A DNA stretch of 64,000 bases. Source: Nostoc edaphicum CCNP1411 (lineage in GTDB: Bacteria; Cyanobacteriota; Cyanobacteriia; Cyanobacteriales; Nostocaceae). The notes under the pieces were generated by a model. That model had not been told where the DNA came from. It searched no databases and worked only from the letters and a program-made list of their open reading frames with translations. The position numbers and the translations under genes are program-made. Location of the stretch: assembly GCF_014023275.1 (NCBI RefSeq), contig NZ_CP054698.1:4092001-4156000 (forward strand), written 5' to 3'. Positions 1,720 to 24,915 of the stretch are shown here, piece after piece. Position 1 is the stretch's first letter. Each line of letters begins with the position of its first letter.

Positions 1720-1977
1720 ATTTTTAACTTGCTCCTCACACAACTAGATAGTATCACTGCTTCCATCAAAAGGCGAGTATAGTGAGTGACACTTTCAAAA
1801 CTGCACCACCAATTGAATTTGGGCTTATATTCCCTTGACTTGATCCTAGCTAAATTTTGGATTGCGATCGCTCCAGAAAGGCAGTTTTCTTGGACGTAAG
1901 TCATTACAATCTGTAACGCAATGAATTAAACAATTATTAATATTTTATACGTCCCTTAATTAATGTCTGAAACTCTA

Positions 1978-3113
1978 TAGGACTAATATTTGATTTCTGA
2001 AAAAGCTCCGTACATTTGAAGAGTCGCAAAATCAAAGGTAGTGTGCCGGATAAACCACTCAAACATCCATTTGAGATGTGAGAACGAAGGAATCAAGGCA
2101 CAGAAACGCCGCACCCAGGTTTTAGCTTGTAACCAAATATCCTCAATTGGATTTTGTGACGGGCAATTAGGAGCAAAGCGGACGCAGTGAATTTTCCACT
2201 CCTCTTGAGACAAATCTTGGTTTACCTCGCCTAAAAAGTTTTGAACCAGATGTGAACGATGGTAAGAAGCACCATCCCAAAAAAGAAGTAATCTTTGATT
2301 GGGGGACTGATCTAATAAATAACGTAGATAATCAATTGTATTTTCTGAGTTACCTGCGTTATACGCTTTTAGTAGTAAGCTTCCCTCCAGATAGTCAACT
2401 GCCCCGTAGTATGTCTGTTTGTCTCGTATATTAACAACTCTCACTGCTATTTCTTGGTCAGTTTTTCCCCAGACATACCCACTTAAATCTCCCCCACATT
2501 AAATGACACTCATCAAGCAGCAATACTCTCAACTTTCCTTCTTCAATTTCCTGCCGATGCCTTGCCAATAGTGTTTCAATCTCTTTTTTTTTTGCAGCAA
2601 CAGCGTCCTCGTCAGCTTTTGGATTTAAAGAAGTAGTTTTCTTCCAACTAATTCCTGCCGCATCAAATAAGTCATAATAGCTCCGCTTTGACTCATAAGT
2701 TACATCATATTCAAAAGCCAATTTATATTCGAGTTCACCAAGTTCCCAACATTCTTTTGTTTGCAACCAACTTAAAACTTCTTCTCGTTGTTGAGCAGTT
2801 AAGTAACTTTTTTTTCCCTTGTGGTTCAGGCGCAGTCCCGAAATTCCATCTTCCTCATAAGCTTGCTTCCAGCTTGTTATCGAACCCAGTGACACATCTA
2901 AAATTGTTTGAATTTCCTCATACTTGTAGCCTTGATAAACCAATTTGACTGCCAACGCTTTCCTCACCTCACGCGCATCTGGGCGATCATCTATAAATTC
3001 TTGTAGTTCTGCGATCGCGGCTTGTAGATGCTGGTTTATCATTGTTAGCTATTAGACAAATATTCTGTCCGTATTATCTCGTAGTTTTTTTCAGAAATCA
3101 AATATGATTCCTA
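1978..3113 (-). mobile_element. IS630-type insertion sequence
   Basis: An element of about 1,136 bp bounded by inverted repeats of roughly 27 bp (left end TAGGACTAATATTTGATTTC; right end the complement with two differences) and flanked by TA at 1976-1977 and 3114-3115, the TA duplication typical of the IS630/Tc1 group. It holds one transposase reading frame, broken by a single base. The transposase stop codon lies inside the left inverted repeat. The same terminal repeat bounds the 148-bp element at 20707-20854. Confidence 0.85.
1983..3042 (-). pseudogene. IS630 family transposase, one-base frameshift
   Basis: DDE transposase of the IS630 family. The upstream part (3042 to 2458, 194 codons) has a helix-turn-helix region and the first catalytic Asp in LLLDECHLMW. 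The downstream part (ending at 1983) has the second Asp in LLLFWDGASYH and the Glu in NPIEDIW. The frames join if one G is removed from the run of five (C-run at 2491-2495 on the plus strand), which restores WGDLSGYVWGKTDQEIAV. All three catalytic residues are present, so the break is recent, a sequencing error, or a site of programmed frameshifting. I call it a pseudogene provisionally. Confidence 0.8.
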
Positions 3114-3306
3114 TATCCCTCTTCTGTCACTCTCCGAAAACATTTGCCTTTTCTAAAATCTAGAGCTTTTGTATAACAAGCGATTGCGCGATTATTTTCT
3201 AATAACAAATACAAGTCCTATTTTTTTCTAATAGTATAGCTTGTATTGATTGCCTCATGAGGCTTCTAGCGATCACTTTCCCGGAAAGTGACAGAAGAGG
3301 GATATA
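3112..3306. mobile_element. 195-bp MITE-like element
   Basis: Ends in an inverted repeat of at least 20 bp (left TATATCCCTCTTCTGTCACT; right end its exact complement), with similarity continuing through TCCGG. It has no coding capacity. The IS630 copy sits exactly at its left end and shares the TA, so that transposon apparently inserted into the terminal TA of this element. Confidence 0.75.
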
Positions 3307-19327: not shown

Positions 19328-20731
19328 ATGAGATTGATTCATACTTTTTCCAACTTTTACAACATGGAAGCAGATTCTATCCCTAAAACGATCGCACAAG
19401 CAAGTCAGCAAATGCAAAGTGGTTCGCTGACTTCCAGGAAATTAGTCAAACATTATCTCGAAGGTATCCAAAAGTCAAATCCTATACTCAATGCTTTTAT
19501 TACAGTTATAGAGCAACAAGCCCTAGAAACTTCTACTAAACTAGATTTTGAGCGAAGCAACGGTCAAAAACACGGATTACTACACGGAATTCCTGTTGCG
19601 ATAAAAGACAATATTGATACAGCAGAAGTCAAAACTACAGTTGGCTCACAACTTTTTTGCGAACTGACACGCATACCATTATCTGATAGTGTAATTGTTC
19701 AAAAGTTAAAGGCAGCAGGGGCGGTAATTTTAGGTAAGACAAATTTAAGCGAGTTTGCGGCTGACCTTTCTGGAAACAATCTTTTTTATGGAAATACCTG
19801 CAACGTCTGGAACCACAACCATTCATCGGGAGGTTCTTCTAGCGGAAGCGCAGCCGCTATTGCTGCTCATCTTTGTTTAGCTGGAATTGGTACTGATACT
19901 GGTGGTTCAATTCGAGTTCCCGCCAGTTTTTCAGGAGTGGTGGGAATACGCCCAACTCAGGGACTACTTAGCAATGAAGGTATTTTTCCCCGTACTCTTA
20001 GTTTTGATACAGTTGGGTTTTTGACAAATTGTGTAGAAGATATTGCTATTTTACTTGATGCTGTACTCTTCCCGATATCTACAAATTTAAAACAATTATA
20101 CCCTCTACCAACCAATATCAAAGATTTAAAATTGGGCATAATTAGTAACTACACATTTCGTGGAATTGAAGGAGAAGTTGCCAAGGCAATTTATAACGCC
20201 ATATCCATTTTGAAACAACTAGGAGCGGAAATTGTCACTCTAAATTCTCCATTTTTAGTAGAAGAATTTGATGAGGCGACTTACTCCACCATTGCTCTTT
20301 ATGAATTCCATCAAGTTTTGCAATCAGAATACGCTACAAACCCCAACATATTTGGAGTTAAAGTACAAAGTGACTTATCCAAAGGAGTAAAAATTTCTCG
20401 TGACAGTTACAAAAAAGCAAAGGATAAATGGGAAAGATGCTTTCTGCAACGGCAAAAACTGTTTCAGCAAGTGGATATTCTGGTAACACCTACAACACCG
20501 ATGGTTGCACCTTTCATTGACGCCGATACTAAAATTTATCAATTAAATCGGCGATTTATGTTACCTTTCAGTTTTCTAGGTTTACCTGCAATATCTCTGC
20601 CTTGTGGCCGAAGCAATCAAGGTTTACCTATAGGAATGCAACTTGTTGGTAATTCTTATACTGAAGCTTTGATTTTGAGAGTTGCCTTTGCCTTCCAGCT
20701 TGCTACTACAGGACTCATATTTGATTTCTGA
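19328..20731 (+). CDS. Amidase-signature family amidase
   Basis: 467 residues with the Ser-cisSer-Lys triad: Lys in AIKDNIDT, SSGGSSSGSAAA and the nucleophile region GTDTGGSIRVPASFSG. It hydrolyses an amide or acts GatA-like; no GatB/C genes are near, so a free amidase is more likely. An alternative ATG lies at 19364. Odd: the last seven residues (TGLIFDF) and stop are encoded by the inverted repeat of a MITE, so the original C-terminus has been replaced. Confidence 0.85.
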   Translation: MRLIHTFSNFYNMEADSIPKTIAQASQQMQSGSLTSRKLVKHYLEGIQKSNPILNAFITVIEQQALETSTKLDFERSNGQKHGLLHGIPVAIKDNIDTAEVKTTVGSQLFCELTRIPLSDSVIVQKLKAAGAVILGKTNLSEFAADLSGNNLFYGNTCNVWNHNHSSGGSSSGSAAAIAAHLCLAGIGTDTGGSIRVPASFSGVVGIRPTQGLLSNEGIFPRTLSFDTVGFLTNCVEDIAILLDAVLFPISTNLKQLYPLPTNIKDLKLGIISNYTFRGIEGEVAKAIYNAISILKQLGAEIVTLNSPFLVEEFDEATYSTIALYEFHQVLQSEYATNPNIFGVKVQSDLSKGVKISRDSYKKAKDKWERCFLQRQKLFQQVDILVTPTTPMVAPFIDADTKIYQLNRRFMLPFSFLGLPAISLPCGRSNQGLPIGMQLVGNSYTEALILRVAFAFQLATTGLIFDF

Positions 20732-20854
20732 AAAACTCAGTATAACTAAGAAGCCTTCTTTCTTGTTGCCTATTGCCTATTGCCTATTGCCTATTACCTA
20801 TTACCTATTGCCTGTGTACGCAAATTAGTTCAGAAATCAAAGCGGATTCCTATA
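20707..20854. mobile_element. 148-bp MITE with IS630-type ends, encoding two C-termini
   Basis: Left end TACAGGACTCATATTTGATT and right end (minus strand) TATAGGAATCCGCTTTGATT match the terminal repeats of the IS630 copy at 1978-3113. The interior holds GCCTATT heptad repeats (20767-20812) and no gene. Both flanking convergent genes read into the element and stop inside its terminal repeats. Confidence 0.85.
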
Positions 20855-21961
20855 GTTTCTATGAAGATAGCCTTCTCTAACTAACGGTAAAACATTTCGC
20901 CCCACATTTTCGCACTCTTCTAAATGGGGATACCCAGACAGGATAAAAACTGTGATTCCCAAGTCTATGTATTGTAAAAGACGCTCCGCCACTTGTTGAT
21001 AACTACCAACAATTGCCATTCCCGCACCACTCCGCACCACAGAAATTCCAGCCCAAAGCAGTGGTTCAACATACCAATCTTCATCAGCATTTCCCCGTAA
21101 TTCCCATTGTCGGCTTTGACCGACACTTTCCCGTTTGGTATTGGGAAATTCGGTGGTTCGGGCTTTAGCTAATACTTTTGGAGAAACTTTTGTTAGCATT
21201 TCCTTTGCTGTTTCTCTGGCTTGAATTTCAGTTGGTCGAGCGATAATATTAATCCTCAATCCATAACGCACCTCATTTCTTCGTCCGCAATTAGTAACTA
21301 ATTGTTGCATCTGGTTGATTCTATCAGCAAGTTGTTGCTGTGCTTCTCCCCACATCAGATAAACATCTGCAAATTCTGCACCCACTTGTTGAGCCATTTC
21401 ACTCGCACCACCGAAATAAAATAGCGGCCCAGATGTTTGCAGAGGTAAAGTTTCTAACCGAGTTTGATGGAGTTGATAAAATTCTCCCTCATAGTTAAAG
21501 GGATTAGTGGTTGACCATAACTGCCGACAAATTTGCATAAATTCACGAGTCCGACGATAGCGGCTATCATGATCTAAATAATCACCATACATCGCCTGTT
21601 CGGTTGGTCGTCCACCTGTGACAATGTTAAGTGAAAGGCGGCCTTTACTGATGTGATCTAAGGTAACAGCCATTTTTGCCAAGATTGGGGCCGAATAGAA
21701 ACCTGGACGCACAGCTACCATCGCCCCAGCACTAATGGTAAGCGCTAAAACTGCTGTTGCTAAAGTCCAAGCTTCCATTATGTGGTGGTTGAAGCCCATA
21801 CCAATTAGAATCTGCTGGAACCCAAATCGTTCTGCTGTTTTAAAAATCTCAACAGTATACTCAAGACTGGGAGGACGTTCCCAAACAGGCAAACCCAAAT
21901 AGAATCCATCACCAGATACCGGAGCACACCAGTTAAATTCCAGTCTTTGTTTTGCAAACAT
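20837..21961 (-). CDS. LLM-class flavin-dependent monooxygenase (SsuD-like)
   Basis: A luciferase-like TIM-barrel protein of 374 residues from the ATG at 21961; an upstream TTG would add nine residues. Features: FNWCAPVSGDG start, SLNIVTGGRPTEQAMYGDYLDHDSRYRRT and ADVYLMWGE, as in FMNH2-dependent alkanesulfonate and sulfone monooxygenases. These release sulfite from organosulfur compounds using reduced flavin. No ssu transporter or flavin reductase gene is adjacent, so the substrate is open. Its last five residues (YRNPL) and stop come from the MITE. Confidence 0.85.
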   Translation of the reverse strand: MFAKQRLEFNWCAPVSGDGFYLGLPVWERPPSLEYTVEIFKTAERFGFQQILIGMGFNHHIMEAWTLATAVLALTISAGAMVAVRPGFYSAPILAKMAVTLDHISKGRLSLNIVTGGRPTEQAMYGDYLDHDSRYRRTREFMQICRQLWSTTNPFNYEGEFYQLHQTRLETLPLQTSGPLFYFGGASEMAQQVGAEFADVYLMWGEAQQQLADRINQMQQLVTNCGRRNEVRYGLRINIIARPTEIQARETAKEMLTKVSPKVLAKARTTEFPNTKRESVGQSRQWELRGNADEDWYVEPLLWAGISVVRSGAGMAIVGSYQQVAERLLQYIDLGITVFILSGYPHLEECENVGRNVLPLVREGYLHRNYRNPL

Positions 21962-22386: not shown

Positions 22387-22785
22387 CTATCTGTCGTTTC
22401 TGTTATATCTGTCGTTTCTGTTATATCTGTCGTTTCTGTTATATCTGTCGTTTCTGTTATATCTGTCGTTTCTGTTATATCTGTCGTTTCTGTTATATCT
22501 GTCGTTTCTGCGATCGCCAACTGAGAACTCGGCTCGGCAACCATTTTTCACCCAAATACGATTTCTCCTATAGCCCCAATTTCCTCTACAACTGGTGTTA
22601 GACAATTGCCTAACCAGTCTCACTCTGCCTCTAGTAGGTATTGAACAAGTATTCCTCTTATTATTCTGGCTTGAACAAGTGATTATCTCCTGAGCGGAAG
22701 CGGGAGCGACAACGCCCAAAAGTGTACCGATACTAACGGTGGCAGCCATGAAGGCGGCAGCAACTATCGGAAGACGCATAACCAT
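22387..22785 (-). CDS. Secreted DUF3011-like protein with NDRYNR hexapeptide repeats
   Basis: 132 residues from the ATG at 22785, chosen because GAGG precedes it; a TTG five codons earlier has no such site. A signal peptide (residues 1-32, cleavage near ASAQ) is followed by a Cys-containing domain (ITCSSQNNKRNTC, SCRGNWGYRRNRIWVKNGCRAEF) resembling DUF3011, then six perfect NDRYNR units encoded by identical 18-bp repeats (22391-22505) and a terminal NDR. It is exported and of unknown role. The repeat array should vary in copy number between strains. Confidence 0.75.
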   Translation of the reverse strand: MVMRLPIVAAAFMAATVSIGTLLGVVAPASAQEIITCSSQNNKRNTCSIPTRGRVRLVRQLSNTSCRGNWGYRRNRIWVKNGCRAEFSVGDRRNDRYNRNDRYNRNDRYNRNDRYNRNDRYNRNDRYNRNDR

Positions 22786-23027
22786 GTTAGACCTCTTCAA
22801 AAATTAAAAAATAAAAACTACAATAATTGTAGCAAACCGTATTAAGAGACAATTTTAAATCAGATTAAATGTAAAGAATATTTGCATTCTCAACAGCATT
22901 ATATACAAAGGTTTTCATGAAACGGATAGCCTGTATTGGAGTTTTAAGTTAGAACTTTAAAATATTTAATCTGGCTGCTGCCAGATTTTCAAAGTTTTAT
23001 TTAAAGTGTAAAAATGGCATTGATTTG

Positions 23028-23210: not shown

Positions 23211-24669
23211 AGGGATTTTAAGTAATTGCAATCCCAAATTAGGACGTTTAAAACTCTATCTAATCTTGTTTCAATCCCTAATAGGGATTTTAAGTAATTG
23301 CAATAGCACTCGAAAATTTAGCGGCTGAGTCTGCTATGGGATTTCAATCCCTAATAGGGATTTTAAGTAATTGCAATAGGAGTCGTAAACCATTATCAGC
23401 ACGATATTCAATATTTCAATCCCTAATAGGGATTTTAAGTAATTGCAATTCCAATTGGATTGGGATTTGAGGCAGAAAGAAAATTATTTCAATCCCTAAT
23501 AGGGATTTTAAGTAATTGCAATGTGTTTCTGTAGAAGGTGGCGTAAAAATATCAGAATTTCAATCCCTAATAGGGATTTTAAGTAATTGCAATAACAGTG
23601 AGTTAATCAGCGCAAAAGAAGCGTCAAATTTCAATCCCTAATAGGGATTTTAAGTAATTGCAATGAGTTTTCCCTGTGGGTTGAGTCGGGATATCTACAT
23701 TTCAATCCCTAATAGGGATTTTAAGTAATTGCAATTCGCAAGCAGGGATTGTCAAATTTTATTGAAGAAGATTTCAATCCCTAATAGGGATTTTAAGTAA
23801 TTGCAATCCGACATACCTTTCATCTGCCAAGGAATAGCAGCATTTCAATCCCTAATAGGGATTTTAAGTAATTGCAATATTGATGGAAGCCATAGTGAAA
23901 CCTGCAATGGCAAATTTCAATCCCTAATAGGGATTTTAAGTAATTGCAATAGATTACCAACTAATCGATTTGTGAATAGAGCATATAATTTCAATCCCTA
24001 ATAGGGATTTTAAGTAATTGCAATAATGATGCATGGGATGCGATCGCTTCCAACATGGCTATTTCAATCCCTAATAGGGATTTTAAGTAATTGCAATAAA
24101 ACTGCCTCCACTTGGAAGCAGCGACTAAATATTTCAATCCCTAATAGGGATTTTAAGTAATTGCAATCATTCTAATAGTAACTGTGGTTGAGCTTCTAAC
24201 TATTTCAATCCCTAATAGGGATTTTAAGTAATTGCAATCTTTATCCAGGGGATCTGGTCGATGATTGAGTCTATTTCAATCCCTAATAGGGATTTTAAGT
24301 AATTGCAATTAGCTGGCAATCTTGCGCTCGAACTTTATTCTGATTTCAATCCCTAATAGGGATTTTAAGTAATTGCAATATATCGCCGTCATCCTGAGCA
24401 GTATCCACAGCTACATTTCAATCCCTAATAGGGATTTTAAGTAATTGCAATTGATGTTTGCACCCGTGCAGAGTAACGAGTAGTACATTTCAATCCCTAA
24501 TAGGGATTTTAAGTAATTGCAATCTTACTGCTCTGGGAAGTCAAAGGCTGTTATTGCTGTATTTCAATCCCTAATAGGGATTTTAAGTAATTGCAATCTA
24601 AATCTTCGGCATCTTCGGCATTTATAAAAAAAATTTCAATCCCTAATAGGGATTTTAAGTAATTGCAAT
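23211..24669 (-). CRISPR. CRISPR array 1: 20 full 37-bp repeats
   Basis: The plus-strand repeat begins ATTTCAATCCCTAATAGGGA and ends AATTGCAAT, with spacers of 33-37 bp. Twenty full repeats lie from 23268 to 24669, plus a truncated 22-base repeat at 23211-23232. The crRNA strand is taken as minus because the leader homology lies to the right, the degenerate repeat lies to the left, and the repeat then ends ATTGAAAT like other cyanobacterial repeats ending GAAAC. The oldest full repeat (23268) begins with G; the other 19 begin with A. No cas gene is in the window. Confidence 0.95.
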
Positions 24670-24915
24670 GGCTGGCGTCTGAAAGCCTTGTCTTATTTGG
24701 TTTTCAAGGTTCGGTTGCGCGGATGCGAAAATCATAACACGAGGAATTGTGATTTGGCTAGAGGCAAATGGCTGAAAACTATTCCCCATAAGGTGCGCGG
24801 ATAGTTTAGAAATGCGATCGCTCTCAAGTTCTTGCAGATAAGCCAATTCAGCCATTTTTGTAGTTACCTCTTCCCCAACACCTACCCATCCGCGCATTTG
24901 GCGAAAAAAACTAAT
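24670..24915 (-). promoter_or_regulatory. CRISPR array 1 leader
   Basis: About 240 bp homologous to 39893-40135, the sequence on the matching side of array 2. Shared features: GGCGTCTGAAA next to the array, a candidate minus-strand -10 box TATGAT (24731-24736), and three GCGCGGAT motifs (two in one orientation, one reversed near 24886). An 80-codon minus-strand frame overlaps the leader. Confidence 0.8.

Follow-up and report, generated by a model that had tools for sequence, protein, structure and literature searches.

RUP is a repeat of Streptococcus pneumoniae that carries stop codons in all six reading frames (PMC2229807) and is over-represented between convergent genes (PMC3049150). It is proposed to be mobilised by IS630-Spn1 and, like the element described below, is short and non-autonomous, has IS630-type ends, and targets TA (PMC2229807). 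RUP differs in one respect: the parts of these two accounts drawn on here describe no copy replacing both ends of two overlapping genes (PMC2229807, PMC3049150). In Coxiella burnetii, insertions of QMITE1 and QMITE2 overlap the 3' ends of functional genes, such as ubiB, pntAA, and nagZ, and tolerance of C-terminal change has been proposed as the reason (PMC5896051). Unlike the Nostoc MITE, each QMITE is described with one gene, and the word "convergent" is absent from the main text of that report (PMC5896051). In Erwinia carotovora, the MITE-like element RU-1 (ERIC) apparently removed the stop of the amidase gene ECA3499 and altered its C-terminus (PMC2759123). There, as that source presents it, one gene is affected and the protein is lengthened by ~35 residues, whereas the Nostoc MITE stops its incoming frames within 5-8 codons (PMC2759123). 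Among the cyanobacteria, 132 of the 147 MITEs of Anabaena sp. 90 are reported as intergenic and 15 as lying in disrupted ORFs (PMC3542288), and a review names Nezha as well as MITEb and MITEe of Anabaena PCC 7120 (PMC10969869). All of these are short inverted-repeat elements from the same order, and they are likened to the present element by the descriptions in those sources, not by sequence (PMC3542288, PMC10969869). No MITE that ends two genes or resolves an overlap was found in the open-licence PMC literature, judged by title or abstract start. Wolk et al. reportedly described, in 2010, contributions of Anabaena insertion sequences to ORFs. In other bacteria, MITEs are already known to form the tails of single genes; a MITE that does so on two sides and resolves an overlap is new within this literature.

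The window is the whole 64,000-nucleotide stretch of Nostoc edaphicum CCNP1411 DNA that was analysed. It contains an amidase gene and a luciferase-like monooxygenase gene in convergent orientation, with a 144-bp MITE at their junction (Table 1). Almost certainly, this MITE inserted at a TA within a short overlap of the two gene tails, abolished both native ends, supplied both new stops, and was tolerated. A non-autonomous element of IS630/Tc1-mariner type would have landed at a TA inside the tail-to-tail overlap, with the loss of both native ends. Each reading frame now extends by a few codons into one of the two terminal repeats and meets a TGA there, because a repeat of this family together with the duplicated TA typically holds stops in all three frames (a border TAG, a TGA at +13, and a TGA at +20). 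Both proteins retain their whole domain and a short tail, near the old length. The mechanism is ordinary transposition combined with tolerance of changed tails. The locus offers a clean before-and-after picture in which a small transposon rewrites two protein ends and abolishes an overlap, yet breaks neither gene. An earlier, sequence-only reading had described an element encoding the C-termini and stops of both genes, and its interpretation is supported in the main: the coordinates, the residues, the use of two TGA triplets in different frames of one terminal repeat, and the TA duplications are all as it described. The ancestral gene overlap, which that reading missed, is the main point.

Table 1. 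Positions in the window of the two genes, the parts of the MITE between them, and the IS630-family copy with matching ends
Feature	Position	Strand	Remark
Amidase gene	19364..20731	+	PF01425 at residues 27-438 of 455; start codon assumed; longest ORF from 19328
TA target-site duplication, left	20707..20708		single TA here in five of six empty-site relatives; TG in L067
MITE, 144 bp, IS630/Tc1-mariner-type ends	20709..20852		absent from all six orthologous loci found in the genus
Left terminal inverted repeat	20709..20732	+	encodes GLIFDF and the TGA of the amidase
Heptamer TTGCCTA	20766..20813		6.9 copies within the MITE
Right terminal inverted repeat	20829..20852	-	encodes (Y)RNPL and the TGA of the monooxygenase
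TA target-site duplication, right	20853..20854		equals the TA of the monooxygenase TAG stop in L063, L064, and L065
Luciferase-like monooxygenase gene	20837..21961	-	PF00296 at residues 32-338 of 375; start codon assumed; longest ORF reaches 21988
IS630-family copy 1978-3113 with TA duplications	1976..3115		matching ends; transposase reads in two frames (HTH_33 and DDE_3 parts)

Both Pfam matches stop short of the changed tails. The 375-residue monooxygenase query includes one residue ahead of the ATG. An artefact of gene prediction is ruled out, as the Pfam families are matched over most of both proteins and both genes are conserved and convergent in six relatives. Pairwise dN/dS values against those relatives, with the last 14 alignment codons excluded, are 0.19-0.30 for the amidase and 0.08-0.15 for the monooxygenase. 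They are much like those of five relative-relative pairs (0.17-0.36 and 0.12-0.16, respectively); such pairwise values can neither date the insertion nor exclude recent relaxation. Nothing in these comparisons suggests that either gene is dead.

The element is short, lacks a transposase gene, and has terminal inverted repeats flanked by a TA/TA duplication. Its arms are 82% complementary over 28 nt, a length that counts in the TA and two flanking bases. The TTGCCTA copy number varies among the six MITEs of the genome that have at least three copies. On the plus strand, the amidase frame crosses the border with ACA (20708-20710), composed of the A of the TA and the element's CA, and continues with GGA CTC ATA TTT GAT TTC to a TGA at 20729-20731, giving the C-terminus ATTGLIFDF. 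On the minus strand, the former TAG of the monooxygenase becomes TAT, composed of the TA duplication and the first element base. It is followed by AGG AAT CCG CTT and a TGA at 20839-20837, giving HRNYRNPL. Each new tail begins with a residue (T or Y) whose codon is made up jointly by the TA duplication and the element. The repeat contains TTTGATTTCTGA; its second TGA is the amidase stop in the left copy, and its first TGA is the monooxygenase stop in the right copy. The left end of the MITE begins with C and not T, by which the border TAG is lost there; the amidase frame is not affected. The two stops now lie 105 nt apart, so that an overlap has become a gap. The new tails are predicted to be translated. 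The filled site is known from one genome only; the TA duplications and the family ends argue against an assembly fault there.

The state before the insertion is seen in relatives. With the amidase as query, 53 genomes of the genus yield seven close orthologues including the query itself; the six others share 79-88% identity, and all remaining matches share at most 41%. The monooxygenase is found in the same seven genomes, with 86-94% identity in the relatives. In all six relatives the two genes are adjacent and convergent, the element is absent, and the site is empty. Three further records, L098-L100, were not counted again, as equal identities indicate that they apparently represent the species of three relatives already included. 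In all six, the tails of the two genes overlap by 20-32 nt, with each stop lying inside the other gene; counted with the stops, the overlap is 29 nt in three, 32 nt in one, and 20 nt in two. The C-terminus of the amidase is FSKGSPL in the two more distant relatives and FSEDSLL or FSEDSFL in the others, and the amidase TAA lies inside the monooxygenase gene. The C-terminus of the monooxygenase is REGYLQRK, RESYLQRK, REGYLQRKY, or REGYL, with the TAG inside the amidase gene. None of the native C-termini shares the residues of the element-coded tails, and the native tails of both genes vary even where there is no element. An absence of the same C-terminal residues and an empty site are what the sequence-only reading had predicted for such orthologues.

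In three of the closest relatives the insertion point is the TA of the monooxygenase's own TAG (Table 1). The stop lies one codon further on than the target TA in L062, whereas L066 and L067 carry an additional stop three codons earlier, which brings the overlap down to 20 nt with no element involved. The exact pre-insertion sequence is a reconstruction, as L067 lacks the TA and the monooxygenase of L062, L066, and L067 stops at a position other than the target TA. Empty sites occur in closer and more distant relatives alike, and the insertion is therefore the derived state. Across the taxonomic family, ten of 217 genomes encode the monooxygenase (E of at most 1e-150). Three of these relatives, which belong to another genus (L191-L193), carry an amidase-like gene of 53-56% identity convergent with it and without overlap. 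The tail-to-tail overlap itself may, on this comparison, be a trait of the present genus.

The repeat belongs to a large family. A relaxed pattern of its end has 149 matches in the 8.3-Mb genome as against one for the reversed control, as the sequence-only reading had anticipated in supposing other copies; this excess, with the 82% complementarity of the arms, shows that the repeat is not a product of chance. The census covers 149 distinct places pooled from pattern searches, perhaps not the same 149, and three more regions. Ninety regions around pattern matches were analysed, and a rescan of these yields 170 ends; TATA precedes the element at 157. Seventy-two complete elements are dispersed among them: 56 of MITE size (94-225 bp) and 16 IS630 copies (1134-1138 bp), with 26 ends unpaired. 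The TA/TA duplications are intact at 70 of the 72. With up to one mismatch allowed, every one of the 53 genomes of the genus searched contains the end pattern, at 1 to 84 places.

The MITE ends are common to all 16 IS630 copies of the same genome. In an alignment of 1144 columns, each of the other 15 shows 1-4 differences from the window copy. Eight of the 16 are open in one frame (seven of 354 codons, one of 355). Shifts or stops, some of which might be sequencing errors of the assembly, interrupt the remaining eight, which include the window copy. The sequence-only reading had named the copy at 1978-3113 as a possible source of mobilisation. Its ends do match, but its role is doubtful because its transposase reads as frameshifted, so that as sequenced this copy could not produce the complete enzyme by itself; the open sister copies may have mobilised the MITE.

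The family ends close reading frames with regularity. Counted from the first element base, the incoming frames stop at 0, +13, and +20 in 165, 165, and 167 of the 170 ends, respectively, and in 65 of the 72 complete elements neither end leaves any of the three frames open beyond 26 nt from the TA. These counts bear on the proposal that the terminal repeats of the IS630 family have been selected for stops in all frames, which would keep 3'-end insertions harmless. Ends that stop every frame are a suggested reason why such insertions are nearly harmless, which would help such elements persist. The repeat read outward also encodes GAFSEIKY, the last residues of the transposase, and its stop in 16 of 16 IS copies. 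Selection for the stops is nevertheless unlikely. The copies derive from a common repeat and are hence not independent, and transposase binding alone could preserve the sequence. The 144-bp MITE is itself one of the seven exceptions, as its left end retains just two of the three stops, and the ends also truncate genes, as set out below. By sequence statistics a three-frame stop appears mildly unusual and cannot be called selected, because 2.2-13.5% of dinucleotide shuffles of the ends and 555 of the 8917 TA-starting 26-mers of the window (6.2%) have one. It is similarly doubtful that the ends are kept as three-frame stops in such a way that the MITEs serve as two-way stop cassettes, settling at gene tails and able to resolve overlaps. 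If this were true, two gene ends locked together in antisense would be freed by such MITEs to evolve separately. The idea of a portable stop cassette for both strands, put forward in the sequence-only reading, holds anatomically for most of the family, though this very MITE is an exception, and a recurrent two-gene effect does not hold, as just one of the 72 complete elements has ORFs of at least 60 codons that stop within it close to their natural ends on both sides.

ORFs of at least 80 codons enter 17 of the 170 ends. At nine of these, the joined flanks show a loss of 32-459 codons, and these are probably disruptions. The ORFs ended 32-459 codons early are those at L107, L113, L118, L120, L145, L148, L160, L168, and L177; they include TonB-receptor, PvuII-type restriction, and Rep_1 replication genes. 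The loss is at most 15 codons at the other eight ends, which belong to seven elements. Six of the seven were compared with relatives; together they provide seven genes with stops, and each of those genes has another end in the relatives. The expectation that other copies end genes is thereby borne out, and the two-gene effect belongs to the amidase/monooxygenase MITE alone.

The five other genes are ended as follows. In a plasmid PemK/MazF-type gene, a TAA was struck and the new tail is YRTNI (two plasmid records compared). A TAG was struck in a 126-codon gene, where the new tail is YRNPV; of the 11 relatives compared, nine terminate at precisely that position (with IDEL, IDDF, IEEF, or similar residues), one is a codon longer, and in one the frame stops early. 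A MobA-like gene has the tail YRTNI, and the 11 relatives compared end variously, the nearest a codon earlier. In a P5C-reductase (proC-like) gene, IGIRFDL replaces IS; nine of the 11 relatives compared end in IS or MS and two in GV or TL. In a protein matched in 52 of 53 genomes, IGIRFDF replaces TSASHIPIQF; two of the nine relatives compared align to that point and seven end otherwise. The seventh element, L152, lies at the end of a NACHT gene with 15 codons lost, as judged from the joined flanks alone. Candidate ends with 1-9 codons lost are seen for ORFs of 60-79 codons at the right end of L113 and at L114, L153, and L165. No second two-gene case was found among the 22 ends at which an ORF of at least 60 codons enters a paired element (72 complete elements); this paired census leaves out the 26 unpaired ends and ORFs of <60 codons. 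ORFs enter L113 at both ends, but one is shortened by 367 codons, and it was rejected as a two-gene case.

That several elements sit in stop codons could mean that stops are a preferred target of this TA-inserting family. Four of the 72 elements lie in the stops of ORFs of at least 100 codons where 0.55 are expected with all TAs of the window taken as equal (P 0.002), and seven lie in a stop or the last 15 codons against 2.6 expected (P 0.015). Once TAs inside genes are excluded, the expectations rise to 1.25 (P 0.037) and 5.9 (P 0.38), respectively. The test was chosen after the cases had been seen, its background is one 64-kb window, and the survival of harmless insertions is enough to explain the counts. 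An insertion preference for stop codons is therefore weak once selection against gene-interior insertions is allowed for, and as an explanation it is improbable, a little more so than selection for all-frame stops.

The MITE could also have been retained because it is useful between the two genes, for instance by insulating them in both directions and so ending their antisense overlap, or by terminating transcription. It does remove an overlap of 20-32 nt, and the segment 20700-20860 folds better than shuffles on both strands with its ends pairing (z -2.48 and -2.94). End pairing is expected of any MITE, however, no intrinsic terminator or terminator-like site was found in 20500-21060, and six relatives manage without the element; a useful role is about as improbable as a stop-codon preference. 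It is very improbable indeed that the element was ancestral at the site and was precisely lost in the relatives: the end pattern does occur throughout the genus, but this would require clean loss in all six, two distant ones included, and restoration of the overlapping ends in each, and no excision footprints are found at the site in any of them.

Arrival of the MITE in the overlap, followed by tolerance, accounts for the locus better. The insertion was probably harmless, and it would have been tolerated simply because the amidase and monooxygenase tails are free to vary. Annotators of these cyanobacteria should bear in mind that a transposon may encode short protein tails of the type IGLIFDF or YRNPL.

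Two other repeats of the window lie beyond the monooxygenase gene. A perfect 18-bp tandem repeat with 6.8 copies (22388-22510) forms the 3' end of a minus-strand ORF at 22387-22800 and encodes a DRYNRN repeat tail. A CRISPR-like array at 23341-24691 contains 19 copies of a 37-nt repeat with a start-to-start spacing of 70-74 nt.
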